A DNA stretch of 64,000 bases from an uncultured bacterium (GTDB lineage Bacteria > Bacillota > Clostridia > Lachnospirales > Lachnospiraceae), in NCBI GenBank assembly GCA_947243845.1, contig CAMXIF010000002.1, positions 124,001 to 188,000 on the forward strand. Direction: 5' to 3'. The notes below the pieces were generated by a model that did no database searches, had not been told where the DNA came from, and was given only the letters and a program-made list of their open reading frames with translations. This document shows positions 16,947 through 36,365 of the stretch, piece after piece; positions within the stretch are counted from its first letter, which is position 1; each line of letters starts with the position of its first letter. A program made the position numbers and the translations under genes.

Positions 16947-16947
16947 A

Positions 16948-18819
16948 TCATTCCTTAACAGGCATACAGCCTATTAATTCCAAATCCGTATACCACACCT
17001 CATTATCATCTAATTGGTAACATTTTAATCCCGGAAAATCTGTTTCTATTTTTTCACTTCTATCATAGGTGATAATAATATCATTATTCTGTACTTTCTC
17101 AGGATACTCATCCTTGATCTGATATTCATAAAAATAAAATTGAAGGCCAGAAAAAATAAGCCAGTTGGCATCAATATCCCGCTCATCAAATGCATAAATC
17201 TGACCAATATCTATATTCGCCTGTTCCAACTGCTGCTTCTGGGTATAAGAAGCTAACACCATACTAGATGCATCTTGTCTTATAGGTTCATTATAATTCA
17301 CATTTGCATTTCGATACCCTATCAACAGAAGTATAACAATCGGCGTAATTACTAAACTTTTATATTTTGTTCCATAATATATTAAACATGAAGAAAACAT
17401 AAATATTGCGCAATACAAAATACACTTATAGTAAAATTCTGCTGTGATATGCTCTCTTTTCTCTGTTAAGTAAGTAAAAAGAAACCCTGCTGACGCCTTA
17501 TTTCCCTTAATAATCGGGACAACTAAATGAATAAATAGGAATGTCATTATAATCCAACTGTAAATAGCGTTCCTGACGCAAGAGCGATATTCTTTTTTTT
17601 CCAATAAATAAATTCCTGCTAGAATTAATGGCATAGAAAACACATTCCAATACCTTACATAACAAAGGGCTTTATAACAATACGCCTTCCCCATCTCATT
17701 CGTATTCCATGTTGAGTACATCTCCGAAAACCAACTAGAAATTAAAAACGCTGCAAAAGTAGCTCCAGCAGCTAATCCAGATATTGTAATAATAATATTT
17801 AAATAAATATTTGCTTTTTTTGTTTCCTTAATAGTATCAAATATATACTTAACGACTGCAACAGCCGCAGCTAAAAAAAGACCTCCTGTCAACAAAGATT
17901 GTACACTGATATGTCCAATCAACATGTCAAACCAAATATTCCATGCTTTTGCATCTATCATATTCCACTCAACCCCCAGACGGACAGATGCATTTATCAA
18001 TTTTCCACCCGATAACCTCCATATACCATTTTGATATAACTCAATGAATTTTCGTGCCAACAAAATAATCGGAACAACAATTATCGACCAAAATAATCTT
18101 TTCTTCCTTTTATAAATCAATATCCCTAAAACAGAAATAAATGATGCTATTATCATTGCAAGCGCTCTTGTATGCAGGAGCGAAGCATAAAAAACAGCGG
18201 CTACATATGCAAAAAAATACAACATATATTTATACAAACATTCTATATGTTCTGCCATTTTACACACCAATATAATAATGATCCAAAGCATAATGTCTAA
18301 AACAACATCATTTATAATATTTGTATCATTATTTGGATGTAAAGGAATTGTACATATTATAGCTACTTGCAACAATGTTGCTTTTGATGAAAAGCCCAAA
18401 TAATATTTGCCAATATAATAGGAAACACTAAATATTACACATTCTCTAAGGCAACGGGTAAAAACCAGAATGATTCGGTAAATCATTATAGGTGACAAAT
18501 GTAACATAAATAACGGAGCAAATATTATATAATAACCAAATCCATAATAACCAGATTTATCTATTACACCGCTCCAATCATATCCCGCCAATGATGCCGC
18601 TCCAACAATTGTCCCCAACTCATCTGTTGTAGTATGTAATGGGTAGGTCGTAAAAAGAGGCCACGATAAAAATAATGAAAAAGCAACCATCAAAAATACT
18701 ATTACGAATATCTCATGATGATTTATGAATTCCTCCATTTTTTTACCAAACATTTTCACTATATAAACTCCGTACAATTTTCTAAAAATTCCAATACTAT
18801 AAAAATCATGATTAATCAT
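16948..18819 (-). CDS. Large multi-pass membrane protein of the AT-rich glycan cassette
   Basis: 623 residues with about twelve hydrophobic segments. An early outer loop reads TTYPLHTTTDELGTIVGAAS, placing a DE pair in the GT-C catalytic position, followed by GYDWSGVIDKSGYYGFGYYI. The same layout (ELG.. / GYDWS.V...GYY.FGY) is visible in the protein at 27660-29519 (EFGYWASAAQALGYDWSSVT, then YSFGYG), so the two are paralogues or family members. The gene overlaps the stop of the upstream GT4 gene by eight bases. Likely a lipid-linked sugar transferase acting outside; specificity unknown. Confidence 0.72.
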   Translation of the reverse strand: MINHDFYSIGIFRKLYGVYIVKMFGKKMEEFINHHEIFVIVFLMVAFSLFLSWPLFTTYPLHTTTDELGTIVGAASLAGYDWSGVIDKSGYYGFGYYIIFAPLFMLHLSPIMIYRIILVFTRCLRECVIFSVSYYIGKYYLGFSSKATLLQVAIICTIPLHPNNDTNIINDVVLDIMLWIIIILVCKMAEHIECLYKYMLYFFAYVAAVFYASLLHTRALAMIIASFISVLGILIYKRKKRLFWSIIVVPIILLARKFIELYQNGIWRLSGGKLINASVRLGVEWNMIDAKAWNIWFDMLIGHISVQSLLTGGLFLAAAVAVVKYIFDTIKETKKANIYLNIIITISGLAAGATFAAFLISSWFSEMYSTWNTNEMGKAYCYKALCYVRYWNVFSMPLILAGIYLLEKKEYRSCVRNAIYSWIIMTFLFIHLVVPIIKGNKASAGFLFTYLTEKREHITAEFYYKCILYCAIFMFSSCLIYYGTKYKSLVITPIVILLLIGYRNANVNYNEPIRQDASSMVLASYTQKQQLEQANIDIGQIYAFDERDIDANWLIFSGLQFYFYEYQIKDEYPEKVQNNDIIITYDRSEKIETDFPGLKCYQLDDNEVWYTDLELIGCMPVKE

Positions 18820-19927
18820 CCAAATATCGGACTATCTCTTTAGCCATATTAATCGGCTGAAAATTCTTGCAAGCAGATTGCTGCCCGTATTTTGCAATTG
18901 TTTTATACTTCTCACGATTTTGAGCAATGTCATAAATACAATCGCAAAATTCTTGTTTATCTCTAAATAACAAGCCATTCTTCTGATTTGAGATAAGTTC
19001 ACTAGTTCCTGCCGCATCTCTTCCCACAACCAATAAACCCGAAATCATTCCTTCTACTGTCACCCTCCCGAATCCCTCTGACCTAGAATTCATTAATAAA
19101 ATATCAGCTTGTTCCAGTTCTGGTAAAATGTTTTCTGTATAAGAAATGATAGTTATATTTCTTTCAAGAGAATTTTTTAATATATATGTATTCAATTCTT
19201 CAAAATAGTCTTTCGAAGAATTACCAACCAATGTTAAATGGCAATCAACAATTCTTCGTACACTCTCAATAAATTCCACTGATTCCTTTGTTCCTTTTGC
19301 CTCACATAATGTTCCTATCTGAATCAGTTTAAGAGTTGATTGTTCTAAAATCCCATGATGTTCTATATAATAATCATCCTTATTTACACCGTTATAAATC
19401 ACTTTATAGGATTTCAATTTATATAATGAAGTGTACTTTTTTGCAATTGCCTGAGATATAAATATTACTTTAGTACTAGTTTCTAATAATTTGTTCATTC
19501 GTATCTTTTTTCTATACTCAAATCCAAAATCCTCTTCCATAAATTCTCTTATATAATACACATGCTTTATATTTAATTCTTTCGCCGCTCTTGCACCAAT
19601 ATCAACGGCCGAAGAGTTTGAAATAATATAGTCATATTTTTTCTCTTTTAATCGTCTCTTTAATTTTTGTACCGCCAAAAAATTTACAGTTTCTTTTATT
19701 ATTTCTTTCCACTTTATTCTCTTCCCAATGGTTCTGAAATCAGGATAATAAAACAAACTTTTATAGGTAATATCTCTGGCTTTCAAGACTTTTTCCATTG
19801 TACTAGAATAAGGTAATAACACTTCAATTTCCCATTTATATACATCTTGCAAGATCTGCACTAACGTGAGCATCGAAATGCTTGAACCATTTTTACCACT
19901 TTCATGTGATACAAATAAAACTTTCAT
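18812..19927 (-). CDS. GT4 family glycosyltransferase
   Basis: About 370 residues of GT-B fold. The N terminus MKVLFVSHESGKNGSSISML is the acceptor-domain start. The donor domain contains LIQIGTLCEAKGTKESVEFI and the signature LLMNSRSEGFGRVTVEGMIS (E-x7-E type), followed by GRDAAGTSELI. The frame extends to 20041 but would overlap the preceding gene by 100 bases. The ATG at 19927 matches the family start and lies 14 bases after that gene's stop, with AAGGG nearby. Retaining GT4 enzymes build repeat units on the cytoplasmic face; the sugar is unknown. Confidence 0.88.
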   Translation of the reverse strand: MKVLFVSHESGKNGSSISMLTLVQILQDVYKWEIEVLLPYSSTMEKVLKARDITYKSLFYYPDFRTIGKRIKWKEIIKETVNFLAVQKLKRRLKEKKYDYIISNSSAVDIGARAAKELNIKHVYYIREFMEEDFGFEYRKKIRMNKLLETSTKVIFISQAIAKKYTSLYKLKSYKVIYNGVNKDDYYIEHHGILEQSTLKLIQIGTLCEAKGTKESVEFIESVRRIVDCHLTLVGNSSKDYFEELNTYILKNSLERNITIISYTENILPELEQADILLMNSRSEGFGRVTVEGMISGLLVVGRDAAGTSELISNQKNGLLFRDKQEFCDCIYDIAQNREKYKTIAKYGQQSACKNFQPINMAKEIVRYLDD

Positions 19928-19941
19928 TTCCCTTACATTTC

Positions 19942-21087
19942 CTAACATTCGTTCGCATATTTTTCCATTACATTCCTTATTGCTTCTAAATATCCAAATT
20001 TGTTTTTTTGATCCGGCTCTAAATAACCACCCTCTCCCCACTCATTCCACGCAAAAATGAAGATATAATCATTCTCATATTCTAACTTTGACTTTTTTAC
20101 TAACTTGTCAAAATATAACTCAAATTTTTCAGGTGATGCATTTTGATATACAGTCCCCCGCTCTCCCTTTCGAGGCGTGTTATCCCAATCAACAAATGCC
20201 CCTGGAATACATTTGTTACTTACTGGTTTATGCTGTAATATAGCATTCCACACCTTATCATAATCTTCTTTAAAATCCATATTGACAAATGCGACACTTG
20301 TCCAATCCCGCCATGGATAAATAACATTTAAAAATCTTTTTATTTCTTTAGACAGTTTATTACATAACAAAGTACCTTTTTTCTTTTTCCATTTACGTGC
20401 AAAAAGAGGTTGATATTCTATATGATATTTAAAACGTGAATCACTGTTTTTAATGTCTTCAATGTTAGAATATTGATTGGCGAATGCAATGCCACTAAAA
20501 CCTCTTTCTATCGCCAATTCATTCCAATAATCTAACATCTCATTTAAGCAATGAATTATATCTGGTCTGTAAATAACAAGTAACGGCTTATTATCTTCTT
20601 TTATATATCTATCATCTTTAAAAAATGGCAAAAAATATTCAAAATGCTTTTTCCATTCACCTTTATCTCCATATTTTTGTTCAAAAATAATTTTTGCTTT
20701 TGAATCTACCCATTGCGTTGTCCAATTTTCATTAGCCCAACATAAACAAAAAGGTATATTTAAATCCTTATTTTCTAAAAGTTGTTCGATAGGTTTCTCT
20801 AACAATAAGTGTCCGCCGAACCAATAATGATATATACAAAATCCATAAATACCATATTCTTTTGCCAATCCAATCTGCCATTTTTTTATACTATCATCTA
20901 ACAGATTATAATAATTATCATTAAGAGGAATACGCGGTTGATTATGTCCAGCATACAATGCCTTTGCTCTTTTTACATTTACCCATTCTGTAAATCCTTT
21001 TCCCCACCACTTATTGTTTTCCTCTATTTCATGATATTGAGGCAAATAGAACGCCATGATTTTTGGCGATTTTCCAATCTCTGACAT
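19942..21087 (-). CDS. WbsX-like glycosyltransferase (GH99-like domain protein)
   Basis: 381 residues with the WbsX family features in order: IMAFYLPQYHEIEENNKWWG, GFTEWVNVKRAKALYAGHNQ, YGIYGFCIYHYWFGGHLLLE, FCLCWANENWTTQW and, near the end, FIFAWNEWGEGGYLEPD. Members occur in O-antigen and capsule clusters and are related to glycoside hydrolase family 99. They are believed to be transferases, though biochemical proof is thin. It sits in the AT-rich cassette between two GT4 genes. Length is normal for the short form. Confidence 0.9.
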   Translation of the reverse strand: MSEIGKSPKIMAFYLPQYHEIEENNKWWGKGFTEWVNVKRAKALYAGHNQPRIPLNDNYYNLLDDSIKKWQIGLAKEYGIYGFCIYHYWFGGHLLLEKPIEQLLENKDLNIPFCLCWANENWTTQWVDSKAKIIFEQKYGDKGEWKKHFEYFLPFFKDDRYIKEDNKPLLVIYRPDIIHCLNEMLDYWNELAIERGFSGIAFANQYSNIEDIKNSDSRFKYHIEYQPLFARKWKKKKGTLLCNKLSKEIKRFLNVIYPWRDWTSVAFVNMDFKEDYDKVWNAILQHKPVSNKCIPGAFVDWDNTPRKGERGTVYQNASPEKFELYFDKLVKKSKLEYENDYIFIFAWNEWGEGGYLEPDQKNKFGYLEAIRNVMEKYANEC

Positions 21088-21114
21088 ATTATATAAACTC
21101 CTTTTTTCGAAAGT

Positions 21115-22296
21115 TTACTCCAATAAGTCTTCTATAAAATTTCTTTTTTCTAATTTCATTCTCTGATTTATTACTACCATAGCTTCTGCAACACGTTTTT
21201 CATATAAACTTAATTTTTCACCATCACATAAATAAGCAATTTCTCTCGCAATTGCAGTATCATCTGTTGGATAGACATAACGCACAGCAGATCCTATTAC
21301 TTCTGGGACAGATGTGGTATTTGAGGCAACACATGTTTTTCCATATGTAGCAGCTTCCAAAACTGGCAAACCAAATCCTTCATTTTTTGACGTATATAAT
21401 ACAAACTTACAATTTATGTATAGGCCTGCCAGTTCTTCGCTAGAGACATACCCCAATAATATTGCATCCCTCTTAATAATTTTTCTATCTAAATTGGGCA
21501 GCTTACATAAATTATTAAATACATTTCTATTTATCCCAGTTATTACAAGTTTCACCAAACTATCAGGATTCTCCTTTTTATATTTCGAAAATCCCAACAG
21601 TGCATAACTTAAATTTTTTAATGGTCTTGCACCACTGACAAATAAAATATAATCATCACAAAAATCCTTTGTAAAAACAGGCGTTTTATTTGCATCAAAT
21701 GATTGATAATACCAAGATATTTTTACACGTTTGTCCTCCGCTAAAATATGTTGCATTGAATAATTAGAAACCGTATACACTTTATCTAAAGATTTTAGGC
21801 ATTTTTTTAAAGCAGGCCTTTTTAGTATTTTTTTTATAAGATTATCCACCATAAAACTTTTCAGTGGAAATAAAATCTTTTCAATTCCATTACTATAATA
21901 TTTTTCTGTATAATCAACTGTATAATGTAAAAAACGTACATCGTGTAGCGTAGCGCAAATTTTTAATGTTGGATTCCGCTTTCGTATTTTTACAATATCT
22001 CTTAAATCCCTTAACCATCCTAGCATGGGATAATATAAAATACTCTTCTCTTCAAAATCTGATATGTTTATTATAGCTTTAACATTTTTCCAAATAAGAT
22101 TATCGTATTTATACAACTCTGGTTCATTTTCATTTGATGGAACAAACCAGTTGGGACATAGAAGAATTATTTTTATTTGATCATTATCTAATTGCAACAA
22201 CTCGCCAATAATATTTCTTGTGTAATTTCCTCCCCCATGATATTCCACACCGTCCTTTTGTGGTAATGCACTAAAAAAATCTATATATATGTTCAT
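21115..22296 (-). CDS. GT4 family glycosyltransferase
   Basis: 393 residues, GT-B fold. NYTRNIIGELL lies in the N-terminal domain. The C-terminal domain has ILFVSGARPLKNLSYALLGF, GYVSSEELAGLYINCKFVLY and the signature SKNEGFGLPVLEAATYGKTC followed by TTSVPEVIGSA, all typical of mannosyl/glucosyl GT4 enzymes. It belongs to the AT-rich cassette, separated by 27 bases from the WbsX-like gene. Sugar and linkage are unknown. Confidence 0.9.
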   Translation of the reverse strand: MNIYIDFFSALPQKDGVEYHGGGNYTRNIIGELLQLDNDQIKIILLCPNWFVPSNENEPELYKYDNLIWKNVKAIINISDFEEKSILYYPMLGWLRDLRDIVKIRKRNPTLKICATLHDVRFLHYTVDYTEKYYSNGIEKILFPLKSFMVDNLIKKILKRPALKKCLKSLDKVYTVSNYSMQHILAEDKRVKISWYYQSFDANKTPVFTKDFCDDYILFVSGARPLKNLSYALLGFSKYKKENPDSLVKLVITGINRNVFNNLCKLPNLDRKIIKRDAILLGYVSSEELAGLYINCKFVLYTSKNEGFGLPVLEAATYGKTCVASNTTSVPEVIGSAVRYVYPTDDTAIAREIAYLCDGEKLSLYEKRVAEAMVVINQRMKLEKRNFIEDLLE

Positions 22297-22351
22297 GATT
22301 TCTGGTAATACCCCTCTCCTGGTCAGACAATTGTTCTATAGATTTTCCGAT

Positions 22352-23131
22352 TTATCCCGCTAACTTTTTTATTAATCGTCTCACCCACCGCAATGGTAAC
22401 AATGCCCTGCCTTGTAAAATATGAATATACTTTTCATACCTTTCCCTCTCCGAATAAAATGTTACATCATAATAGTTTTCCAAATGTTCCATGTCCTGAA
22501 ATCTATTTATAATATCCCTCTTCTCCGTTAATACATAATATCTATTAGCATACTTTCTCCCTACATACAGATAACCATTTTCTGTTACTATATTTTCCCA
22601 CGCAACATATCCAGGATTTTCTGCTGATGGTTCGTCTGACTCGAGGCACAGTATCCAAGGCCGGTATTGTTTAAAATCCATGCCTTTAAGACATTGCTTT
22701 TCCCATCCTTCAACATCTATTTTTAAAAGGTGGATAGTTTGATTAGGCTGAATGTATCTATCACAAACTTCCTTTAAGGTCCATACCGGGATAATAGATG
22801 AGCACATACCCCTAACATGCTTGTTTGTTACATCAAAACTCGCTGATTCTCCTTTTCCATGCAATTTCATTTCTCCGTGTACGTCACTAATTCCAATCAT
22901 AAGGTTAATGTCATTGGGCCTGTCCATCGCATATTTTGGCGCATATAAAGGTTGTGGCTCAATATTTATTCCACCCCCCCCCCTTACAGAAAAAAACTTC
23001 GTCACTGAATCAAATACCGGATCATTAGCTCCTACGTCAATCCAAAAAATATTTGTTTCTGGCTTTAGTACATGATATAAAATGATGTCTTCCATATTTT
23101 TTTCATGAGAAAAGCTTAATAAATATTCCAC
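22352..23131 (-). CDS. FkbM family methyltransferase (contains a G10 tract)
   Basis: 259 residues. The SAM-binding region starts IFWIDVGANDPVFDSVTKFF and continues to INIEPQPLY; HLLKIDVEGWEKQCLKGMDF is the second FkbM hallmark. FkbM enzymes O-methylate sugars or other small acceptors. Between these motifs the coding strand has ten consecutive G (22974-22983) encoding RGGGG where relatives normally have RGW-x-G. With ten G the frame is open, so this copy is ON. Gain or loss of one G would truncate the protein about 60 residues from the start. The gene is thus a probable phase-variable methylation switch for the glycan built by the neighbouring transferases. Confidence 0.88.
   Translation of the reverse strand: MEYLLSFSHEKNMEDIILYHVLKPETNIFWIDVGANDPVFDSVTKFFSVRGGGGINIEPQPLYAPKYAMDRPNDINLMIGISDVHGEMKLHGKGESASFDVTNKHVRGMCSSIIPVWTLKEVCDRYIQPNQTIHLLKIDVEGWEKQCLKGMDFKQYRPWILCLESDEPSAENPGYVAWENIVTENGYLYVGRKYANRYYVLTEKRDIINRFQDMEHLENYYDVTFYSERERYEKYIHILQGRALLPLRWVRRLIKKLAG
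22974..22983 (-). repeat. G10 homopolymer tract inside the FkbM gene
   Basis: Ten uninterrupted C on the plus strand (G on the coding strand) in a strongly AT-rich gene. Homopolymers of this length are prone to slipped-strand mispairing. Read in the annotated frame it codes AGG GGG GGG GGT. Confidence 0.9.
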
Positions 23132-23215
23132 TTAATACCGCCTCCTCTCTAATATACTTCTTTACAAAATTCCTATTGACTGCTCTATACTATTTACAAC
23201 CATTCCCCTCCATAT

Positions 23216-23995
23216 TTATCCCTTCTTAATAAAATGATAGAACTCCCGATAAAACAATTTTAATCCTTCCTCTTTAATCAACATCCATCCATAAGTGATA
23301 AGACCTATATATTTACCATATTTTTTTGTGATTTCTTGTTTTCTTTTCCTTCTTCTTTTCTGATTCTCATCCATCCATTCAGCATTAAAATAATGAATTG
23401 TATATGTATTGTCAGTTATTTCTAACGTATCATTTGATGGATTATAAGGGCAAAAATAGTCATGTGAAAAAATAGTAATTTCATCTAGTTCTTGTTTTTC
23501 ATCTTTTAAAATTAAGCCATGACTTTTGCATATTGCTGTAAATGGATATGGATTGGGTGTTAAATCAATTTTTCCACTTGCATCATAAAACGAACGATCT
23601 GTATAATAATCAAGGAATTCCTTTATAATTACATTTCCCTTTTCACTACCTATAATCCAAGGTGACAATGTCATCGACATTTTTTGAAAACATGTAAATG
23701 CTCTCAAATTTAAAAGATCATCAAAACTCTTTAAGACTTCAATATCACTGTCTAAATAAATTCCCCCAAAATGATATAGCGCATATAAACGGATATAATC
23801 CGATGCAAAAGCATATTTGTTTTCTGCGAAAGCCTCTCTTGTATACCTACAGCAATTAATATCAAAACGCTTTAAATCCCAACATATAATTTCATAGTCT
23901 TGAAGATTATCTTTCCATGATTGAATGCATTTATCTACTAATTCTGGATATTGCTCTCCACTCAGCCAACAAAAATGTATTATTTTAGGTATCAT
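23216..23995 (-). CDS. GT32-type glycosyltransferase (capsular polysaccharide synthesis)
   Basis: 259 residues. IPKIIHFCWLSGEQYPELVD is the standard start of the DXD-containing sugar transferases. YAFASDYIRLYALYHFGGIY is followed by LDSDIEVLKSFDDLL with the DSD metal-binding motif. Members transfer hexoses or N-acetylhexosamines in capsule clusters. It lies between the FkbM and GT2 genes of the AT-rich cassette with small gaps. A basic stretch (KRRRKRKQE) near residue 215 may contact the membrane. Donor unknown. Confidence 0.9.
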   Translation of the reverse strand: MIPKIIHFCWLSGEQYPELVDKCIQSWKDNLQDYEIICWDLKRFDINCCRYTREAFAENKYAFASDYIRLYALYHFGGIYLDSDIEVLKSFDDLLNLRAFTCFQKMSMTLSPWIIGSEKGNVIIKEFLDYYTDRSFYDASGKIDLTPNPYPFTAICKSHGLILKDEKQELDEITIFSHDYFCPYNPSNDTLEITDNTYTIHYFNAEWMDENQKRRRKRKQEITKKYGKYIGLITYGWMLIKEEGLKLFYREFYHFIKKG

Positions 23996-24011
23996 CTCTG
24001 CATTACCCTCT

Positions 24012-25016
24012 TCACAATTTATAAAACACTCTCACAAACCATTTTGCATAGTTCCGATGAATCATTCTCATAAAAACTGTAACTGCCAGTTTTTGTTTAG
24101 TCTCAATATCATTTTTCTTCATCAAAGATAAATAAGGATTGCGCATATATACCGGGCAATAGCTTTCAAGAATCCTCTTTGCGTAATCGCACAATTCGTC
24201 CAGCATCTTAACATCGCTTTTTCTGTCTGATAGCTTATAATATCGATGTTTCCTATTTGCCTCTAATATGAAATATGTAAAAAAACTCATTAACGTATAT
24301 TCAAAGATATCATAATCATTTGGCTTATGAGCAATTACATACTGAACTGATTCCTCCAATTCTTTATAGGGTACATCGCTCCGCAAAATCTTTTTTGTTG
24401 TTATACTATCCAAATGTACCAGTTGGTAATATCCCTCATATTGCAAAAAATCTATATGATCGGTCAGAAAAAAGGCTGCCAGGTTAAATGGATTATCCTC
24501 ATACGTTTTCCCTTCCGGAAATCTCAGATTATGCCTTTTCAAATAATCAAGCCGATACATTTTCCCATGCATATTCAGATGTCTGAGAATACACTGCCCC
24601 TGCTCATCCAGACGATACCGCACATGGGAAATAATCTGACCATCTTCCGTAATTCGATATTGCCCACTGCATACAACATCCGATTGATTTTTTTCGGCCT
24701 TCGTTACTAAATTGAAAAGATACTCTGAATCTAAATAATCATCACTATCTAAAAAAACAACGTATTTGCAATGCTCTAATTTATCCATTCCATAATTTCT
24801 TGCACTGGATAAACCACCATTTGCTTTATTGTAATAACTGATAAAAGAGTATTTACTTCTATATTCTTTAATAATGTCCTCGGTATGATCAAAGCTTCCA
24901 TCATTAACAATGACAACTTCGTAATCATCAAAATTTTGATACACAACAGATTCTAAACATTTACGTATATACTTTTCCGCATTGTATGCAGGAATTATTA
25001 TTGTCACAAGACTCAT
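24012..25016 (-). CDS. Family 2 glycosyltransferase
   Basis: 334 residues, GT-A fold: VTIIIPAYNAEKYIRKCLES, VIVNDGSFDHTEDII, NGGLSSARNYGMD and the metal-binding VVFLDSDDYLDSEYLF, followed by the catalytic-region KTYEDNPFNLAAFF. It is the rightmost and first-transcribed gene of the AT-rich cassette. It probably adds a sugar to the growing repeat unit in the cytoplasm. Confidence 0.9.
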   Translation of the reverse strand: MSLVTIIIPAYNAEKYIRKCLESVVYQNFDDYEVVIVNDGSFDHTEDIIKEYRSKYSFISYYNKANGGLSSARNYGMDKLEHCKYVVFLDSDDYLDSEYLFNLVTKAEKNQSDVVCSGQYRITEDGQIISHVRYRLDEQGQCILRHLNMHGKMYRLDYLKRHNLRFPEGKTYEDNPFNLAAFFLTDHIDFLQYEGYYQLVHLDSITTKKILRSDVPYKELEESVQYVIAHKPNDYDIFEYTLMSFFTYFILEANRKHRYYKLSDRKSDVKMLDELCDYAKRILESYCPVYMRNPYLSLMKKNDIETKQKLAVTVFMRMIHRNYAKWFVRVFYKL

Positions 25017-25091
25017 ATAGAAAATTCCTCTTTATACATTAATCTTTACTTCTGTTGGTTTTTGTCCCAAAACGATCCGTTCCAAACACAA

Positions 25092-25161
25092 AAAATCCTG
25101 ACACAAAGCATGTCCACGCACTGTACTTACAGTCCAATTTCATACTTTATATCAGGATTTT
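25092..25161. repeat. Inverted repeat beside the Rpn cassette
   Basis: AAAATCCTGA (25092-25101) and TCAGGATTTT (25152-25161) are perfect inverted copies 50 bases apart. The similarity continues imperfectly (ACACAAAGCATG against the complement of CATACTTTATA). The right arm is also the left terminal repeat of the Rpn cassette, so this may be a nested or duplicated end. Confidence 0.6.
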
Positions 25162-25217
25162 GTTGTAGTATTCCATATCTCAGAATCTTGAGCCTATTAT
25201 TGTATATTTATTATATC

Positions 25218-26276
25218 CTACCAGTTTTCCCTAAGCCTTTCCTCCGCTTCCGTCTCACTCAATCCAAACTGCCTGGCCAATTGCTGACAGGTGATTTCCC
25301 TGGAAACAGACGCTTCTTTCATCATTCTAATCGCCAAGATTATGCTTTCCCCTATTCCTTCTTTTATTCCTTCTTTTATTCCTTCCTCTTTCCCTTCTTT
25401 CATTCCCTCTTCTCTGGCCACCCGCCGTGTTTCCTGCACATCATATGCTTCAAAATTTGCAAATAATTCTCCCATATGCCGCTCCTTTACTTTTCCTGAA
25501 AATGCCTCTGCCTCCTCACGTGGCACATTAATCTTCACAAGCAGTATTTCCACTATCTGGGCTATGATATCCAGCAGGTATTCCGGTGACTTCGATACAA
25601 TGTCATTTAAGTACTCTACGCTGACTTCTTTGCTGAGTTCTGCAAAATCAGCCGCCTTTTGTAATTTGCTGATCATCATTACGATTGACAGTTCATCTTT
25701 CTTTTTCATGATCTCTGCATTACTATAATCTTTCAGCTTCACAAGAATACATTTATAGTTTGGTATATAATCTTCAAAAACATCACTTAAATAAACTCTA
25801 TTTCCCAATTCGATACCGTCATTCCAGTCAGCCGCCCCATCATAATAAACAATCGGAAGTACAGGAGGATATCTAAAATCCTTTGTTTTGCTGATACCCT
25901 TATGTTCTCTTTCCTGCTCTTTCTCATAGCTTTCCCAGATATATACCATATAACGTAACACCTGCATGATTACATTATAATCCACTTGGGATTTATGTTC
26001 AATAAGAGAAATCAAATAAAACGGTGTTTCGTTTCCTTTTAGGCGAATCTTTTTTACAACATCTGAATTTCTCTCCTCCGTGAACATATGGACATATTGC
26101 TTGGAAACATCCTCAATGTCTTCCGGCTTCACATCTTTAAGCAGTGGTATGTTCACGTACCCCTGCAGAAACTGAGAGCACAGACGAGAATCTCCAAAAA
26201 TAATCTTACTGGAAGTATCTCTGATCTGGGAATTTGGTATCCGGCCGTCAATGCCTGTTTCATTTGTCTGTTTCAT
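25218..26276 (-). CDS. Rpn family recombination-promoting nuclease / putative transposase
   Basis: About 352 residues. The PD-(D/E)XK core is visible as RNSDVVKKI ... FYLISLIEHKSQVDYNVIMQ (D81, E102 and K104 counting from the upstream ATG at 26303), followed by QVLRYMVYIW, and PVLPIVYYDGAADW, another family signature. The C-terminal part has the repeated acidic/Gly helix MKEGKEEGIKEGIKEGIGES and a helix-turn-helix-like end. Rpn proteins are DNA endonucleases that promote RecA-independent recombination. The ATG at 26276 has AAAGGCAGG upstream; an earlier ATG at 26303 is possible. The gene is flanked by inverted repeats and interrupts the glycan genes. Confidence 0.88.
   Translation of the reverse strand: MKQTNETGIDGRIPNSQIRDTSSKIIFGDSRLCSQFLQGYVNIPLLKDVKPEDIEDVSKQYVHMFTEERNSDVVKKIRLKGNETPFYLISLIEHKSQVDYNVIMQVLRYMVYIWESYEKEQEREHKGISKTKDFRYPPVLPIVYYDGAADWNDGIELGNRVYLSDVFEDYIPNYKCILVKLKDYSNAEIMKKKDELSIVMMISKLQKAADFAELSKEVSVEYLNDIVSKSPEYLLDIIAQIVEILLVKINVPREEAEAFSGKVKERHMGELFANFEAYDVQETRRVAREEGMKEGKEEGIKEGIKEGIGESIILAIRMMKEASVSREITCQQLARQFGLSETEAEERLRENW
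25370..25417. repeat. Short tandem repeats in the Rpn gene tail
   Basis: Twelve-base units of the form ATTCCTTCTTTT repeat on the plus strand, with degenerate copies to either side, encoding the KEGI repeats of the C-terminal helix. Copy-number change by slippage keeps the reading frame. Confidence 0.6.
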
Positions 26277-26534
26277 CGTAAACCTGCCTTTCCCGCACGG
26301 CATACGACAAAATAACTGTACCGATAAATCCTATAGAGATTTAGTTCATACCCCATGCGCCTTATAAAGTTGTTGTATTGGGATATTTTTTCTGAAACTC
26401 CAGAATTGATGAATGAATTGCTCTGAAAGAAAATATCCGATTATTGATATGTTGCCTTTTCAATATAGCACATTCTTTTCTTTCTCGCAACCAAACCCTG
26501 ATATAAAATATGAAATTGTCAAGGTACCTTTTTC

Positions 26535-27584
26535 TTACATCTCTGCCTGCAATTCTCCCTGCACCGGCATCTCCTGATGTATCTTCTTACCCACCACCTG
26601 ATAGGTCTTTACTACTTCCTTCTCCATCTGCATCTGCATATAAATCGCATCATACTCTGTCTTTCTCGCATGATACTGCGTATCCTGAAGAAGTTTCCTA
26701 TTGGCCGCAATCACGTCTGCCAGAAGTCCTATCATAAATGTCAAAAAGCCTATGATAATCAGCGTACATGCCAGAATAAGAGACTGCACATGTCCGCCGG
26801 ATTGTCCCATTGCCATATAAAACAAAAATCGAAAACCAATTACCAGACCGATTACCACCGGTGTGATCGCCAGATAGCTAAAAAACTTGAGCGGCTTATA
26901 CATCATATACGCCCGAAGGATTGTGATCATACTTTTTTTCACATATCCCCAGATACTGTGAAAAAGTCTTGATGGCCGAAGTTCAGCGTTTGTCCTCACC
27001 GGCACACTTGTGAGCGCTATCTTCTCCCTGCCCGCCTGTACAATCGTCTCCAGCGTATAAGTATAATCATTGACCACATTGATACGCATGGCCGCTTCTC
27101 TGCTGAATGCCCTGAACCCACTGGGCGCATCAGGTATGCTCGTACTGGAAGCCTTTCGTACCACCCAGCTTCCAAAATGCTGTAATTTCTTTTTGACAAA
27201 GGAAAAGTGTTCGGTCTGGTCGATAGGCCTTTCCCCGATCACCATGTCTGCCTGCCCGTCCAAAATCGGCTGTATTAATTTCTGGATATCCTCTGCGCAA
27301 TACTGGTTATCCGCATCCGTATTAACGATGATATCAGCCCCATTTCTAAGACAGCCATCCAGTCCTGCCATAAACCCTTTGGCAAGTCCTTTATTCTGCT
27401 TAAAATTGACCACATGTTGTACGCCCCATTTCCTTGCGACTTCTACAGTATTATCCTGACTGCCGTCATTGATGATCAAATATTCTATCTCATCTATTCC
27501 TTCCAATTCCTTCGGAAGATCGTTGAGTGCAATCTCCAATGTTTCCGCTTCGTTATAACAGGGAATCTGGATCAGCAGTTTCAT
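26535..27584 (-). CDS. Family 2 glycosyltransferase with two C-terminal membrane segments
   Basis: About 349 residues. MKLLIQIPCYNEAETLEIAL, LIINDGSQDNTVEVA, GADIIVNTDADNQYCAEDI (metal site DAD) and MVIGERPID place it in the dolichol-phosphate-mannose/polyprenyl-phosphate GT2 group; the FSYLAITPVVIGLVIGFRFL and following helices anchor it. The ATG at 27584 has GGAGG seven bases upstream and matches the family start, so the longer frame to 27650 is not used. It is the third gene downstream of the invertible segment at 30213-31519 and likely charges the lipid carrier used by the membrane transferase at 27660-29519. Confidence 0.9.
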   Translation of the reverse strand: MKLLIQIPCYNEAETLEIALNDLPKELEGIDEIEYLIINDGSQDNTVEVARKWGVQHVVNFKQNKGLAKGFMAGLDGCLRNGADIIVNTDADNQYCAEDIQKLIQPILDGQADMVIGERPIDQTEHFSFVKKKLQHFGSWVVRKASSTSIPDAPSGFRAFSREAAMRINVVNDYTYTLETIVQAGREKIALTSVPVRTNAELRPSRLFHSIWGYVKKSMITILRAYMMYKPLKFFSYLAITPVVIGLVIGFRFLFYMAMGQSGGHVQSLILACTLIIIGFLTFMIGLLADVIAANRKLLQDTQYHARKTEYDAIYMQMQMEKEVVKTYQVVGKKIHQEMPVQGELQAEM

Positions 27585-27659
27585 ATGTATACCTCCACTT
27601 CTCGCTTTCGGGGTAAGCCATTTTGTTATGCTGCTTTCATAGCATAACATCTCTGTTTC

Positions 27660-29519
27660 TTATTCCACCATAAACAGTACAAACGATTGACTTTCACTGC
27701 ATTTTTTATACCTATCTTCAAGTACCTCCAGGCAGGTAAAACCTTGATCTACAACCAGAAAACCTTCTGTTGGCAAAACTCTATCCAGTTCTTTCAATGC
27801 TGCTGTTTTATCTTTATCCGTCTTATTGTCCTGTGCAATTCCGTGCTTTAGATACTCCGTATCCTGCAGGCTGACAATCTCCATTTCTCTTTCTCTCACG
27901 GCAAACTGTATCAAATCGATATGTGGAAATCCTCCTCCATACAGATAGGTGACCGGTATCTCATAATCCTCTATATATTGCGCGATCTTCAGATTATAGT
28001 AATTTGTGTCATTAAAAGATTTTGTATATTTTTCTCCCAGGTTAAGCGCCAACACCGTTTCCATCAGCACAAATACACCTAACAAATATAAGTACTTTTT
28101 AAATCGCCTTCCAGCATATATGCAAAACATCACGCCTGCCATGAGCAGCATTCCCAAGATAAAGCCTTTTGGAAACTCTGTCTTGATATCGTAGTTCCAA
28201 TCATCTGACAGATAACTGATTCCAGGTGCAAAATAGCCCTGCATGACAGTCAGTCCGCTTTGCACTGCACTTTTAAAGGTGATTGCAAACATCGTTGCCG
28301 CCAGTACTGCACTTCCTGTAAATACGTACAGTTTATGCTTCATCTCGCCAAAAGAGAGGAGGCCGATTCCTATATAAACCGGCAAAATATGTTCGTTGTA
28401 TCTTCCGTAAGCAAACCCGTCCAGTCTGCCGGGAGACATCATGGCAATCGCCGTGATCATAAATTGTCCTATCATAGAGAGCAGGCAGAAAAAATAAAAA
28501 TAATTCTTGTTATCATCATCTTCCGACATATTTTCCTTTTGTTTCTTTGGAAAATGACCTTGCAGCATTCTCCCTGTCTTTTTGAGGCAAATGTATACAG
28601 CCGGAACAAACATTCCGAAAGATGCCATAATCAGATAGTATAATTTTCCTGCACTGCTTCTCAAAAACTCCTTCATTCCTTGAACTGTCAGCAGCGCTTT
28701 CAACATTCCCATGCGCCCTGTATAGTCGTTCACAGAAAGTAAGCCTGTATCTGCTGCCACATATACGGTATCCATAACTTGTGCTTTTATCCACAAACCG
28801 CACATACCGCCTGCCGCCAATGTTACAATTACTGCTGTCAAGCTCTTACGGGCGGAAGGCAGCTTCCATCCATACATAATAAGTGTTACAATCGCGGCGA
28901 TACATATACCTGCTGTACGCATATGCACAAAATATATATATATAAGTGACAATGCCAGCTGCACTGCACTTATCATATTCGGTTTCTCAATAAACAAAAG
29001 CAGCCGATAGCAGAGGAACACATACAGAAACATAAGCAATGCTTCCGCTAATGTCATCTGCACATAGAACGACCACGGCGGATAGAAGACTGCCAATCCT
29101 ACCGCCAATATAATCTGCATTTTTCTTTCCTGCAGCCCTTCTACCGGATACAGTCTTTTATAAATCCCCCACAGTATTCCAACGGCGCTGCATTGTAATA
29201 GCATATTGACTGTAATTGCTGCGCGGTATGCCATGATGCTGTCCTTAAAGAGCCACAAAATAGGCGTAAGAATGATTCCGTATCCAAAGGAATAGTATGA
29301 ACCAAGCGCTGTCACAGAGGACCAGTCATATCCCAATGCCTGCGCTGCACTCGCCCAGTAACCAAATTCATCCGGATAGATGGAAAAACCGCATACTTTA
29401 TAAATATGAAATTGAAAAATGCAAAAAATAAGCAGCACAAAGAGCAATAAGTACCGGAAGAAGAATCTTTTTCTTCCTCCGGTTATTGCCTGCATATCTT
29501 TAGTACTTAACGATTGCAT
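27660..29519 (-). CDS. Large multi-pass membrane glycosyltransferase-like protein
   Basis: About 619 residues with eleven to twelve hydrophobic segments. The first outer loop has YPDEFGYWASAAQALGYDWS, a DE pair in the GT-C catalytic position, followed by GSYYSFGYGIILTPILWLF. It shares this layout with the protein at 16948-18819. The C-terminal 130 residues are soluble. Starts: ATG 29519 has AGGG five bases before it and overlaps the stop of the exported protein by 20 bases; ATG 29495 is non-overlapping but has a poor site. It is the second gene downstream of the invertible segment and may glycosylate the exported protein or a glycan. Confidence 0.75.
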   Translation of the reverse strand: MQSLSTKDMQAITGGRKRFFFRYLLLFVLLIFCIFQFHIYKVCGFSIYPDEFGYWASAAQALGYDWSSVTALGSYYSFGYGIILTPILWLFKDSIMAYRAAITVNMLLQCSAVGILWGIYKRLYPVEGLQERKMQIILAVGLAVFYPPWSFYVQMTLAEALLMFLYVFLCYRLLLFIEKPNMISAVQLALSLIYIYFVHMRTAGICIAAIVTLIMYGWKLPSARKSLTAVIVTLAAGGMCGLWIKAQVMDTVYVAADTGLLSVNDYTGRMGMLKALLTVQGMKEFLRSSAGKLYYLIMASFGMFVPAVYICLKKTGRMLQGHFPKKQKENMSEDDDNKNYFYFFCLLSMIGQFMITAIAMMSPGRLDGFAYGRYNEHILPVYIGIGLLSFGEMKHKLYVFTGSAVLAATMFAITFKSAVQSGLTVMQGYFAPGISYLSDDWNYDIKTEFPKGFILGMLLMAGVMFCIYAGRRFKKYLYLLGVFVLMETVLALNLGEKYTKSFNDTNYYNLKIAQYIEDYEIPVTYLYGGGFPHIDLIQFAVREREMEIVSLQDTEYLKHGIAQDNKTDKDKTAALKELDRVLPTEGFLVVDQGFTCLEVLEDRYKKCSESQSFVLFMVE

Positions 29520-30186
29520 ATGCACCCTGACCACCTGTTGTATCAAAAGTGATCGTATTAGGATCGGTGTCTGTATCCTGAAGGACACTTACTGCTCCAC
29601 CCGGACGTACGCAGATGACTGCATATGTTTTACCGCCCTGTGCGAAGGATTTCGGAATACCGACTTTCACAGAAATCTTTTCACCTTCCTGTGAAAGCAG
29701 ACTGAACTGACCGCCAGCCTTCTTTCCAATCTCGATGTTGATGCAAGGACCTACCGTAGCGCCTACGGCTGCTGCTGCATTGTCAATCACTGCCTTTGCA
29801 AGACTGCTCTTATTCACATCCATATTGGAAAATCTTGCATAGGGAACTTCTCCTGCTGTGAGACCATAGCTTCCTGCAATCCCTGCAAGGCCACTCGTAA
29901 TCGCTGTTCCGTTTACACTGGTTGCGATGTAAACACCCTGCACTGTCGATTTGACGCCTGCAACTGTATTTGTTACAGGAATCTCTGCAAAGCTGCTCAC
30001 AGAAGACTCACCGCCATCACTAATGCTCTCATTAATGGACTCATTAATGATCTCAATGACTTTGTCTTCTGATTTAGAAGAGGAGCCGCCTGAGCCACCA
30101 CTTGCAAGTACGCTCATGGACGGTGCTGCAACCAGAGCAACTGTCAAAGCGCTTGCAATCATTTTTTGAATGAATTTTGTTTTCAT
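29500..30186 (-). CDS. Exported protein of unknown function, first gene downstream of the invertible promoter segment
   Basis: 228 residues with a clear signal peptide (MKTKFIQKMIASALTVALVA, cleavage likely after SVLA). A Gly/Ser-rich linker and an acidic helix (DKVIEIINESINESISDGG) follow, then a roughly 150-residue domain rich in Ala, Gly, Val and Thr with GGAVSVLQDTDTDPNTITFD near the end. No LPXTG motif, lipobox or known domain is recognised. The ribosome binding site AAGGAGG is excellent, but only 26 bases separate the ATG from the left inverted repeat. Its promoter must therefore lie within or beyond the invertible segment. In the orientation given the consensus-like promoter points away, so expression is predicted to be low. 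Confidence 0.85.
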   Translation of the reverse strand: MKTKFIQKMIASALTVALVAAPSMSVLASGGSGGSSSKSEDKVIEIINESINESISDGGESSVSSFAEIPVTNTVAGVKSTVQGVYIATSVNGTAITSGLAGIAGSYGLTAGEVPYARFSNMDVNKSSLAKAVIDNAAAAVGATVGPCINIEIGKKAGGQFSLLSQEGEKISVKVGIPKSFAQGGKTYAVICVRPGGAVSVLQDTDTDPNTITFDTTGGQGAYAIVKY

Positions 30187-30212
30187 TCTTCTACCTCCTT
30201 ATAATTTTCTAG

Positions 30213-30243
30213 AAATTTCATAAAATAAAATATATTACGAAAT
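30213..30243 (+). repeat. Left 31-bp inverted repeat of the invertible segment
   Basis: Begins AAATTTCATAAAATAAAATA and ends ATTACGAAAT. Its exact reverse complement occurs at 31489-31519 with no mismatch, and identity ends sharply on both sides. It lies 26 bases upstream of the exported-protein start. Confidence 0.92.
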
Positions 30244-30301
30244 AGGACTTCCCGCGCCTGTTAATGCATATCAGCCATACCCCTACCAAATTTTTGACGG
30301 T

Positions 30302-31408
30302 CTAAAGATTCCCATTTAGCCGTTCCATCAAAATACGTTTTTGTCTGATAGATGTGTGTACATACAACTGCAATGTGATCCGTATATCGGAATGTCCCAT
30401 AATCTCGCACAAACTTTTTGCATCGAATCCCAACTCTACACATCTGCTTGCGAAACAATGTCTCAAAGCATGAAAACGAAAACTTTTAAATCCATTTTCT
30501 TTCAAAAAACGTTTAAAGCGGTATTGCAGTGTACGCGGTTCACAATAAGCAACTCTTTTTCCGGGAACAACATATTCTTCCGGCGCACTCTTGTTGCATT
30601 TCAGAAAATGGACCAGATTGCTGGGTAATGGAATATCTCTTACGGCATTTCTTGTTTTGGGCTCCATAATATAGATTTTTGTCTCAGAACTTCGATTAGA
30701 ATATGTTCGTATCCGCTGCATTGTCTTATTGACATGAATCATGCCGCTATCTAAGTCCACATCTTTCCAACGCAGAGCGCACAATTCTCCGATTCTGATT
30801 CCGGAATTAATGGCAATCAATATACCTGCCTGTTCCGGCACTTTTTTTATATATAGTATTTTTTCTACTTCTTTTATAGTTTCTATGGAGGGGAGTTCTT
30901 TGATCTCAGATTTGTTTTCGTATTTTCCTGTAAGCGATAGATTCGGTATCACATAATGAACGTTCTCATGTTGATTCTCATAGTATTTGAGCGCCTGCTG
31001 AAACAGTCCAAGTATATTCTTAATGTATTTAAAAGATAGGCCGTCATCTTTTTTGGTCAAGATGAATTTTTGTACCCTGTCAACGCTCAACATTTCCGGA
31101 TATATGTGCGCCCAATATGGCAGCAGATGGTTTTCAACAATCTTTCGATAATTGGCATAAGTTGACGGTTTCCAGTCTCTTCTTTTCTGTTCCAGCCAGA
31201 AAGATAGGATGATTCCTATGGTGTCTCCTTTTACTCTGATATCACCATATCTTTCTATATATTTCTGCATCTTTCCCTTTACTTCGCTATAGTTTTTGCC
31301 ATATACAGAATGATATTTACGTTTTTTATCCTCATCATACCCCAGGATAACCCTTCCTTCCCATCTCCCGTCTTTGCGTTTATAAATGTTTCTTCCTCTT
31401 CTTGGCAC
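30302..31408 (-). CDS. Tyrosine recombinase (phage-integrase family DNA invertase)
   Basis: 368 residues. An N-terminal arm-type region (residues 1-55, RRGRNIYKRKDGRWEGRVI) is followed by a SAM-like core-binding domain (about 60-165) and the catalytic domain with R205 in GIRIGELCAL, K251, H313-x-x-R316 in FHALRHCFAS, H339 in MGHSDIRIT and the nucleophile Y349. All canonical catalytic residues are present, so it should be active. The start is GTG at 31408 with AGGAGGG seven bases ahead. Enclosed by perfect inverted repeats with no excisionase or phage genes nearby, it is most likely the invertase of that segment rather than a prophage integrase. Its own promoter is weak or unclear. Confidence 0.92.
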   Translation of the reverse strand: MPRRGRNIYKRKDGRWEGRVILGYDEDKKRKYHSVYGKNYSEVKGKMQKYIERYGDIRVKGDTIGIILSFWLEQKRRDWKPSTYANYRKIVENHLLPYWAHIYPEMLSVDRVQKFILTKKDDGLSFKYIKNILGLFQQALKYYENQHENVHYVIPNLSLTGKYENKSEIKELPSIETIKEVEKILYIKKVPEQAGILIAINSGIRIGELCALRWKDVDLDSGMIHVNKTMQRIRTYSNRSSETKIYIMEPKTRNAVRDIPLPSNLVHFLKCNKSAPEEYVVPGKRVAYCEPRTLQYRFKRFLKENGFKSFRFHALRHCFASRCVELGFDAKSLCEIMGHSDIRITLQLYVHTSIRQKRILMERLNGNL

Positions 31409-31448
31409 TGTAATTCCCTCCTATCAACTGTAAATTTTGAAAAAAATA

Positions 31449-31476
31449 TTGACATAACCTGAATTTGCGTTACAAT
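31449..31476 (+). promoter_or_regulatory. Outward-facing promoter at the right end of the invertible segment
   Basis: TTGACA (31449-31454), 16-base spacer, TACAAT (31471-31476), followed by an A/G-rich start region and then the right inverted repeat. The -35 is perfect and the -10 has one mismatch. It reads rightward, away from the exported-protein operon. After inversion the start site would be about 70-75 bases upstream of that gene's ATG with the repeat in the leader. Confidence 0.7.
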
Positions 31477-31488
31477 TAAAAAAGGTAA

Positions 31489-31519
31489 ATTTCGTAATAT
31501 ATTTTATTTTATGAAATTT
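31489..31519 (-). repeat. Right 31-bp inverted repeat of the invertible segment
   Basis: Exact reverse complement of 30213-30243; on the plus strand it starts ATTTCGTAATATATTTTATT and ends ATGAAATTT. The outward promoter lies 12 bases inside it. Confidence 0.92.
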
Positions 31520-31596
31520 ATAATTCGTTTTAAAGAACAGTGGGTTTATTCTGAATGCATATCAGATAAAAATAGTTAGATTATAAGAGTCTGAAA

Positions 31597-31627
31597 AAGG
31601 ATCTTGGGAAAATTTCTCAAGATCCTT
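31597..31627 (-). terminator. Intrinsic terminator downstream of the GT52-like gene
   Basis: AAGGATCTTG (31597-31606) pairs perfectly with CAAGATCCTT (31618-31627), with an extra GAAA/TTTC pairing inside. On the minus strand the stem is followed by TTTTT (including the two stem T), fitting termination of the gene ending at 31682. It would also hinder rightward transcripts leaving the invertible segment. Confidence 0.75.
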
Positions 31628-31681: not shown

Positions 31682-32758
31682 TCAATCAATCATTTCGTTC
31701 TGTCTGTGCAACTCTGGCGCCTCATATTGGTCCATGAAATCCTCTCCCAAAAACACTATCTCCTCAGCAAACTTAATACCGTTTGGAACCGTAAATACAG
31801 AGACCACCCGTTTGAAGCAAAGTCCGGGAATATAGTTCAGAATTTCCATGGGGAATTTACCTTGCAACACAATATGCTGTGGAAATTCCTTCTCATAATC
31901 AAGCACATCCCTGGGGTGAGGCTTGATCAGAATCTGTGCACGCCTGCCGTCAACAACACCATATTCTTCTATGATATCTGTAAAAATCTGCCGGCGCACC
32001 CCCAAATCACACAGCGGCTCCGACAATACCAACACTTTCTGTTCTGCACCCTGTGCAAGCTGCTTCATCAGTCCGTCCAGATCCTCAATAAACAGATGCA
32101 CCAGAATATCTTTATCCTCCGGCGTCAGTCTGTCCACCAGCTTCGCCCGCGGCACTTCTATATACTTCTTACAAGGATACGTAAGTACACTGATATCATT
32201 CACTTCCATATCCAGACAATATTTCCCGTAACCGTTCTGGATAAAAATCAGATTCCGCGCTGCCATCCAGGCTTTCAGCCCAAAATGCCCCCGGTTGTCA
32301 TAGCGCGCCGTATCATAATATTGGATACAGTTGAGTCCATCTTCCACTGCATGATAAGGGATTTTTTTATAACTTAAATAGTACCCGATCGGATCCGAAT
32401 CACAAAATACATAGATGTCCTGATACTGTCTAAAATCCACCGGCACATAGGGTTCCTGCAGTTTGCCCAGAAGTTTTGTATACTTGATCCTGTCCAGCAT
32501 GTTTAAGACCAGATTTCCCCGGTCTGTATGATACTTCATAAGTTCCGGAAAAAAACTATCCTCTTTCTCATCAAACATCAACACATTCTCAAAAAGGGGA
32601 CATCTTTCGGCACGCTCTTTCAGATTTCCAAAAGGGTTGGACATGGTACTCATCACAAGTGTGGCATATCCCTGCTTTTCCTTCGGCAGCGCCAGTTCCT
32701 TCAGACAGGCTACATATACATGATAAAAGGTGTGACATACATAGATTCGATCTTTCAT
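31682..32758 (-). CDS. GT52/polysialyltransferase-like glycosyltransferase, candidate pseudaminyltransferase
   Basis: 358 residues. RIYVCHTFYHVYVACLKEL at the N terminus, FCDSDPIGYYLSYKKIPYH in the middle and AQILIKPHPRDVLDYEKEF near residue 295 form the pattern of family 52 and polysialyltransferase-like GT-B enzymes that use CMP-activated sugars. No signal or membrane segment is seen. It lies next to the pseudaminic acid genes, whose product is CMP-pseudaminic acid, so transfer of a nonulosonic acid is the best guess. It has a separate promoter (32825-32853) and terminator, so it is a single-gene unit. Donor specificity is inference. Confidence 0.72.
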   Translation of the reverse strand: MKDRIYVCHTFYHVYVACLKELALPKEKQGYATLVMSTMSNPFGNLKERAERCPLFENVLMFDEKEDSFFPELMKYHTDRGNLVLNMLDRIKYTKLLGKLQEPYVPVDFRQYQDIYVFCDSDPIGYYLSYKKIPYHAVEDGLNCIQYYDTARYDNRGHFGLKAWMAARNLIFIQNGYGKYCLDMEVNDISVLTYPCKKYIEVPRAKLVDRLTPEDKDILVHLFIEDLDGLMKQLAQGAEQKVLVLSEPLCDLGVRRQIFTDIIEEYGVVDGRRAQILIKPHPRDVLDYEKEFPQHIVLQGKFPMEILNYIPGLCFKRVVSVFTVPNGIKFAEEIVFLGEDFMDQYEAPELHRQNEMID

Positions 32759-36294: not shown

Positions 36295-36365
36295 ATCTCT
36301 ATCCTATCATTTTATCCGCAAAATACGTTATACTTATTCACTTTGATTCGCTGCCGTCTCTAATA

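Follow-up and report, generated by a model that had tools for sequence, protein, structure and literature searches.

Positions 30213 to 31519 of the window (the whole 64,000-nucleotide stretch of Lachnospiraceae DNA analyzed here) very probably form a self-contained invertible promoter cassette that carries its own recombinase and switches an adjoining exported-protein/glycan operon. In the mechanism we propose, the recombinase would bind two 25-bp core sites (10-bp arms around a 5-bp spacer) and exchange strands within their identical spacers, thereby inverting everything between them, the recombinase gene included, while one strong promoter would point out of the cassette end nearest the recombinase start.

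The window locus and its predicted switch

The features of the locus, by position in the window, are the following.

15369..26303, minus strand: rest of the co-directional run (Rpn-type, GT2, Caps_synth, FkbM methyltransferase, GT4, WbsX, GT4, membrane protein, and Polysacc_synt genes)
26535..27650, minus strand: GtrB-like glycosyltransferase (GT2), from Pfam and PHROGs scans
27660..29588, minus strand: polytopic membrane protein, 642 aa, with 11 hydropathy peaks; second gene
29500..30186, minus strand: exported 228-aa protein (Exp) with a signal-peptide-like start and SD AAGGAGG; first gene of the putative target operon
30213..30243, no strand: left inverted repeat; core site at 30217-30241, TTCATAAAAT AAAAT ATATTACGAA
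30284..30299, minus strand: CGTC-N8-GGTA beside the recombinase 3' end, in a block conserved within the subfamily (read by eye)
30302..31408, minus strand: tyrosine recombinase, 368 aa, GTG start, inside the segment, from Pfam and catalytic motifs
31449..31476, plus strand: predicted outward promoter P_out, TTGACA-N16-TACAAT, pointing across the right repeat and away from the exported-protein gene
31489..31519, no strand: right inverted repeat; core site at 31491-31515, the exact reverse complement of the left core
31597..31627, minus strand: hairpin followed by a T-run, read from the sequence as a possible terminator of the gene at 31682-32758
31682..32758, minus strand: glycosyltransferase family 52-like gene (Pfam), its 3' end facing the segment

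The two repeats (30213-30243 and 31489-31519) are complementary at 31 of 31 positions, in agreement with the original prediction of perfect 31-bp inverted repeats around a recombinase gene. In a search for the longest perfect inverted repeat with arms 600 to 2,500 bp apart, this locus gave 31, far above the values obtained from 30 Markov shuffles (at most 14) and from the window's 4-kb tiles without this pair (at most 13). The accompanying claim that identity stops exactly at the repeat ends needs slight correction: because the extended arms (30210-30243 and 31489-31522) match at 33 of 34 positions, identity does not end quite at base 31. The segment is thus bounded by repeats within the 10- to 40-nt range of invertons, and each repeat holds an imperfect dyad, the 25-bp core of 10-bp arm, 5-bp spacer, and 10-bp arm. 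A degenerate core-site pattern (at most one mismatch) occurs at five places in the 3.39-Mb genome, compared with one for a reversed control; the five are the window pair, another pair carried by contig C7, and a lone site on C15. This 10-5-10 structure, the outward promoter, and the present OFF-like orientation were not part of the original prediction.

The recombinase frame (30302-31408, minus strand) is intact, being open across 368 aa, and matches Phage_integrase (PF00589) and Phage_int_SAM_3 (PF14659) in Pfam. The residues that we take, from their motifs, to be catalytic (R205, K251, H313, R316, H339, and Y349) are all in place, so that the expectation of a complete tyrosine recombinase with R-K-H-R-H-Y was confirmed. 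Its closest PDB sequences are 6EMY, 6EN0, and 6EMZ (E values of 8e-17 to 3e-16), which are structures of Tn1549 Int, and the catalytic set is joined to the core-binding domain of a Tn916/Tn1549-type integrase (IntTn916 subgroup). The inverted arms around a 5-bp crossover also recall that subgroup, a likeness of geometry only. About 67 residues precede the SAM-like domain, and no Pfam arm-binding match was obtained there at an E value of ≤1; the arm-binding domain of the IntTn916 subgroup is not always predicted by Pfam, according to PMC8138268. Scores against the Fim-type tyrosine DNA invertase models NF007371 and NF007370 were below the NCBIfam curated cutoffs (27.0 versus 222 bits and 19.8 versus 221 bits), and Pfam returned only tyrosine recombinase domains and no serine invertase (Hin/Mpi) domain.

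No conjugative or other mobile element was found around the recombinase, the scanned neighbor proteins being glycan related, metabolic, or unassigned, bar one Rpn-type gene. When the recombinase and six neighbors were compared with PHROGs, "integration and excision" matches were returned for the recombinase and for that Rpn-type gene, the fourth gene of the co-directional run, and none of the seven matched an excisionase. Judged from its sequence, the enzyme is a conjugative-transposon (Tn916/Tn1549) type integrase standing without a mobile element.

P_out lies on the recombinase's start side of the segment. A promoter scan returned seven promoter-like sites in this AT-rich stretch compared with 5.9 expected; P_out was the best of them (11/12), with a score reached in 0 of 100 shuffles, and both of its hexamers are unchanged in four of five close species, with two positions changed in the fifth. 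At present it aims, antisense, at the 3' end of the opposite-strand glycosyltransferase gene (31682-32758) and would fire away from the exported-protein/GtrB-like/glycan operon, for which the orientation in the window is presumably OFF, although read-through from the recombinase gene could still supply the operon. In silico inversion places the P_out start point (taken as 7 nt downstream of the −10 hexamer) about 63 nt upstream of the exported-protein ATG, so that, at the level of motifs, the segment has the internal promoter able to face a neighboring operon that is expected of an inverton. If active, P_out would from there drive the genes from 30186 to about 15369 (ON), changing expression and, presumably, phenotype.

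These co-directional genes constitute a putative operon as judged from their arrangement. Its first product, the exported 228-aa protein, had no Pfam match, and the Polysacc_synt match in the run (27.8 bits) is just below the cutoff of 28.2. On the other side of the segment, the hairpin at 31597..31627 was not returned by a terminator scan. PseI and PseF (pseudaminic acid) genes also lie near the switch, at 35242-37067 of the window.

A family of self-enclosed recombinase loci

We examined 54 loci, namely, the window and 53 others fetched around recombinase matches in a genus of 77 genomes; the fetched loci are a selection of the better matches plus four distant ones. Core-site pairs, for which equal spacers were required in the count, enclose the recombinase in 38 of the 54 and are lacking in 16, which bears out the conservation of the repeats with the recombinase gene in relatives. 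When sites were instead picked blind to the spacer (at most two mismatches), 35 of 52 recombinase open reading frames were flanked by a site at each end (the 52 do not include L054 and L068, which the open reading frame filter did not pick up, or the second piece of L081). The spacers were identical within the pair in 35 of 35 cases, as strand exchange within the spacer would explain, and between loci 52 of 1,190 comparisons matched, with 24 different spacers among the family loci. In the five closest species, the two sites of a pair agree at 25, 25, 24, 25, and 25 of 25 positions. The site sequence is common to the window and genome G046; G045 departs from it at a single position of one arm, and G055 and G063 each have their own sequence in both arms.

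In a recombinase tree of 53 of the 54 rows (L081 left out), site types largely follow two clades, the pattern that would arise if every enzyme recognized its own flanking sites. The first (support, 100/99) has 18 rows, 15 with AAAT-type pairs and three with one site; the second (100/100) has 26 rows, 21 with AGAAT/AGATT-type pairs, three with one site, and two with none; one AGAAT-type row, L062, falls outside both. Site-type labels require 10 changes on the tree compared with 26.4 when shuffled, and none of 200 shuffles was as low. Searched for by itself, a strict site motif was found in 10 of 200 genomes drawn from the family Lachnospiraceae (control, 0), and six of the nine other than the window's own have a related recombinase between paired sites. 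In G240, a 2-Mb genome of another genus, nine strict core sites occur on contigs C13, C18, C20, C24, and C30; three pairs have starts 180 to 253 bp apart, and contigs C18 and C20 both start 93 bp ahead of the same site sequence.

The outward promoter also recurs in the family. In 34 of the 38 enclosed segments (L063, L081, L085, and L087 left out), the best outward promoter beats the best inward one in 29, the inward being equal or better in five. An outward promoter equaled by no more than 5 of 100 shuffles is present in 21 of the 34 and an inward one in one, while in 13 the outward promoter is no better than shuffles at this level; a perfect TTGACA-17-TATAAT points outward in 10 segments and inward in none.

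The genes for Exp, the membrane protein, and the GtrB-like glycosyltransferase adjoin the switch at the same position and in the same orientation in seven species, in which recombinase identity falls to 38%, and in an eighth species a diverged Exp gene adjoins it. Elsewhere in the family the neighbors are CTP-transferase/oxidoreductase genes with a GDPD gene, CpsB, a NeuB gene, or an LCP gene followed by a sortase-like gene (24.6 bits, below the cutoff). Homologues of Exp also exist without a switch: among loci that match on the plus strand, TTGAWA-17-TATWAT is present in the 170 bp upstream at 9 of the 13 that lack a recombinase, and three of three with a recombinase have no comparable upstream promoter.

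Orientation and alternative explanations

Comparisons between species, given here in recombinase-forward coordinates, show segments of the family in both orientations, the breakpoints falling at the sites. For the operon flank of L057, the alignment continues across the 5' site and ends at the inner edge of that site (8620); for the homologous flank of L085, it crosses the 3' site and ends at the inner edge there (8938); that is, the two are inverted relative to each other. L057 and L056 show the same pattern, with breakpoints at the inner site edges. L084, which retains one recognizable site, has flanks collinear with those of L085 around an inverted 2.1-kb middle, and its segment is likewise inverted between collinear flanks relative to that of L087. 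In the window's own genome, comparison with one flank in a sister species (about 85 to 92% DNA identity; the other flank is unalignable) shows the recombinase copy on C15 to be inverted.

At 14 two-site loci whose first gene is TnpB-like (see below), that gene is on the promoter side in five (L055, L057, L068, L070, and L081) and on the other side in nine. L081 is a decayed copy, since its recombinase is split into two frames and its TnpB-like match contains stops. Such matches occur at 17 two-site loci in all; L076 to L078 were left out of the 14, their match being 1.6 kb off on the recombinase 3' side and not the first gene, and L084, with one site lost, is an 18th locus. In contrast, all eight Exp-type loci, the window included, have one OFF-like orientation, and none of the eight is flipped, for which reason flipping at the window locus is something that we infer. 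Because assemblies show one orientation per genome, only orientation bias can be read from them, and minority orientations are invisible with one genome per species and three metagenome-assembled relatives. The original prediction of a phase-variable switch, with the unit in either orientation in related genomes, thus gains from the well-placed promoter and from related units oriented oppositely between species with breakpoints at the repeats, but it finds a single orientation at the loci most like the window.

That uniformity would also fit a formerly active switch now locked OFF, its sites or recombinase no longer competent or inversion no longer used in the Exp-type subfamily, and locked-looking relatives with one recognizable site do exist (the C15 copy and L084). 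We consider this unlikely: at the window both sites are intact with identical spacers, the two arms are alike across five species, and the recombinase frame and catalytic residues are intact. Moreover, the target is on the promoter side at only 5 of the 38 enclosed loci (the five named above), which as a rough guide would give 0 of 8 about one time in three.

A single recombinase gene of transposon/phage integrase type enclosed by terminal inverted repeats could also be a small mobile element, a tyrosine-recombinase transposon rather than a resident switch. In seven species, however, it keeps one position and orientation next to the same three genes, and in the eighth it lies next to the diverged Exp gene; this makes a mobile element highly improbable, as does the finding that the window's repeats form one pair in the genome. 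We give even less credence to the repeats being bound for another use, such as autoregulation, with an incidental outward promoter. P_out and the recombinase start do share the short stretch 31409-31490, which separates the gene from the right core site, and so binding at the core site could regulate the recombinase; against such a use stand the between-species inversions with breakpoints at the sites, the spacer identity within pairs, and the pairs without a recombinase that still carry a perfect outward promoter.

Recombinase-less copies, TnpB-like genes, and known systems

Four core-site pairs without a recombinase, which we call mini-switches, were found upstream of TnpB-like genes, on contig C7 of the window's own genome (393 bp; G000:C7:1907-2299) and in G046 (440 bp), G059 (400 bp), and G047 (398 bp); each has a perfect promoter pointing away from the TnpB-like gene. 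A 1,159-bp segment in G059 (G059:C19:70378-71536, in L139) also has no recombinase match; its core-site pair encloses instead an apparent Uma2-type nuclease gene, as read from the sequence, and its perfect promoters, one of which adjoins the site (read by eye), are aimed toward the TnpB-like gene. The window's genome has a second related recombinase on C15 (G000:C15:46078-47276, L065) with an open frame and one recognizable core site.

Autonomous and recombinase-less segments share pairs of GGTC repeats, spaced mostly 8 bp apart. These occur in 22 of 37 autonomous segments (the 38 enclosed ones without L081), with 33 of 34 matches on the recombinase strand and a density of 0.61 per kb compared with 0.024 in the flanks, and in six of six further segments (the four mini-switches, the 1,159-bp segment, and one with a broken recombinase). 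The pairs are placed immediately before the start of the recombinase and close to the 3' site, so that the mini-switches seem to have arisen by deletion; the pairs may represent arm-type binding sites. The exact repeat is absent from the window segment and from 14 others; in the window, only the degenerate CGTC-N8-GGTA at 30284-30299 appears to resemble the GGTC-N8-GGTC of other members.

In part of the family, the first gene of the predicted switch-controlled operons encodes a TnpB/Cas12f-like protein, as at G000:C7:512-1843 (L166), with relatives in L056, L066, L085, L087, L049, L055, L070, and others. It is present in 24 of the 77 genus genomes (E ≤ 1e-20) and has 1,738 homologues at an E value of ≤1e-10; among the best 120 of these, the two named by their source are called "transposase." At the three aligned positions that we take, from their motifs, to be the RuvC acidic residues, it has A/S, P, and R/K. 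It thus fits the pattern of TldR proteins, a TnpB-type fold with the RuvC catalytic residues lost, the structural model here being of low confidence with top-match TM scores of about 0.25. A conserved noncoding stretch of roughly 200 nt lies downstream of the TnpB-like gene (11 loci aligned), for example, in L056 at about 7627-7300 on the minus strand: GGCATTAGAAGCCGG ... GGGAGCGAAGCGG ... CCAATATGCCTT. No Rfam family reached its gathering score in seven loci, and no genomic target was found for the two tails tried as putative guides. We regard this stretch as a candidate guide or other structured RNA.

Several known systems share parts of this design. Tn1549 Int, the source of the closest PDB sequences, acts on AT-rich 11-bp imperfect inverted repeats around a 5-bp crossover region, the same site geometry, but it moves a conjugative transposon, whereas in the window no element is seen and two inverted sites enclose the gene (PMC5871717). 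Inverton group 139 with invertase group 35, as described in the text of PMC11892184, is also close: a tyrosine-type recombinase is tied to inverted repeats, 32 of 33 invertons are in Clostridia, orientation was tracked in metagenomic reads, and coordinates of the Clostridium sp. D5 example imply a 26-bp repeat. There, however, the invertase is called "nearby" and nonregulatable, and the example inverton, at about 257 bp, is too small for a recombinase gene (compare the mini-switches). PsrA of the pneumococcal cod locus is an invertase among the four genes of an hsdS inverton with inverted repeats and reversible phase variation, but it swaps hsdS coding alleles and flips no promoter (PMC12324116). 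The Hin switch of Salmonella has its recombinase inside a promoter-carrying invertible segment (PMC5903667). Hin is, however, a serine recombinase, unrelated in enzyme and site type. Like the window segment, the RecV promoter invertons of Clostridioides difficile (PMC5903667) and the Bacteroides glycan-locus invertons (PMC11892184) place an invertible promoter upstream of surface genes, but as described there their recombinases lie outside the inverted segment.

Already on record are thus invertons as such, invertases inside their own segment (Hin and PsrA), and invertons of Clostridia to which a tyrosine recombinase is linked (PMC5903667, PMC12324116, and PMC11892184). The window locus, put forward originally as a specific and possibly undescribed example, proves not to be isolated but to belong to a large family that extends outside the genus; for the tyrosine, self-enclosed, glycan-linked form, no description was found in the literature searched, most subscription journals lying outside its scope. 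Arm-binding recombinases are described as mobile-element enzymes arisen from nonmobile ones (PMC8138268); the Tn1549-like enzyme of this locus apparently acts as a resident switch for a promoter.

We tentatively propose, as a plausible but not yet probable reading, that in Lachnospiraceae an integrase of the Tn916/Tn1549 type has given rise to a family of self-flipping cassettes resembling transposons that do not move, with autonomous copies and recombinase-less ones (393 to 440 bp) that have the same core-site type and GGTC repeats and would be flipped only in trans. Operons for surface glycans would be under the control of such cassettes; in one large branch, the first gene to be switched, TnpB-like without RuvC catalytic residues and accompanied by a conserved noncoding RNA, would be a phase-variable, possibly RNA-guided regulator. 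If so, this genome holds an autonomous switch (the window), a recombinase-less one on C7 upstream of a TnpB-like gene, and a stranded recombinase on C15 that could serve C7.

The analysis assigns a probable function to what was a bare integrase annotation and yields a rule for finding such switches from assemblies alone, namely, a 10-5-10 core site, equal spacers, and an outward promoter. It offers a testable connection to nuclease-dead TnpB proteins and an example in which an integrase of transposon type, present in autonomous and dependent copies, seems to have been domesticated for regulation. It also suggests a way in which cells of one Lachnospiraceae clone can come to differ in their surface glycans.
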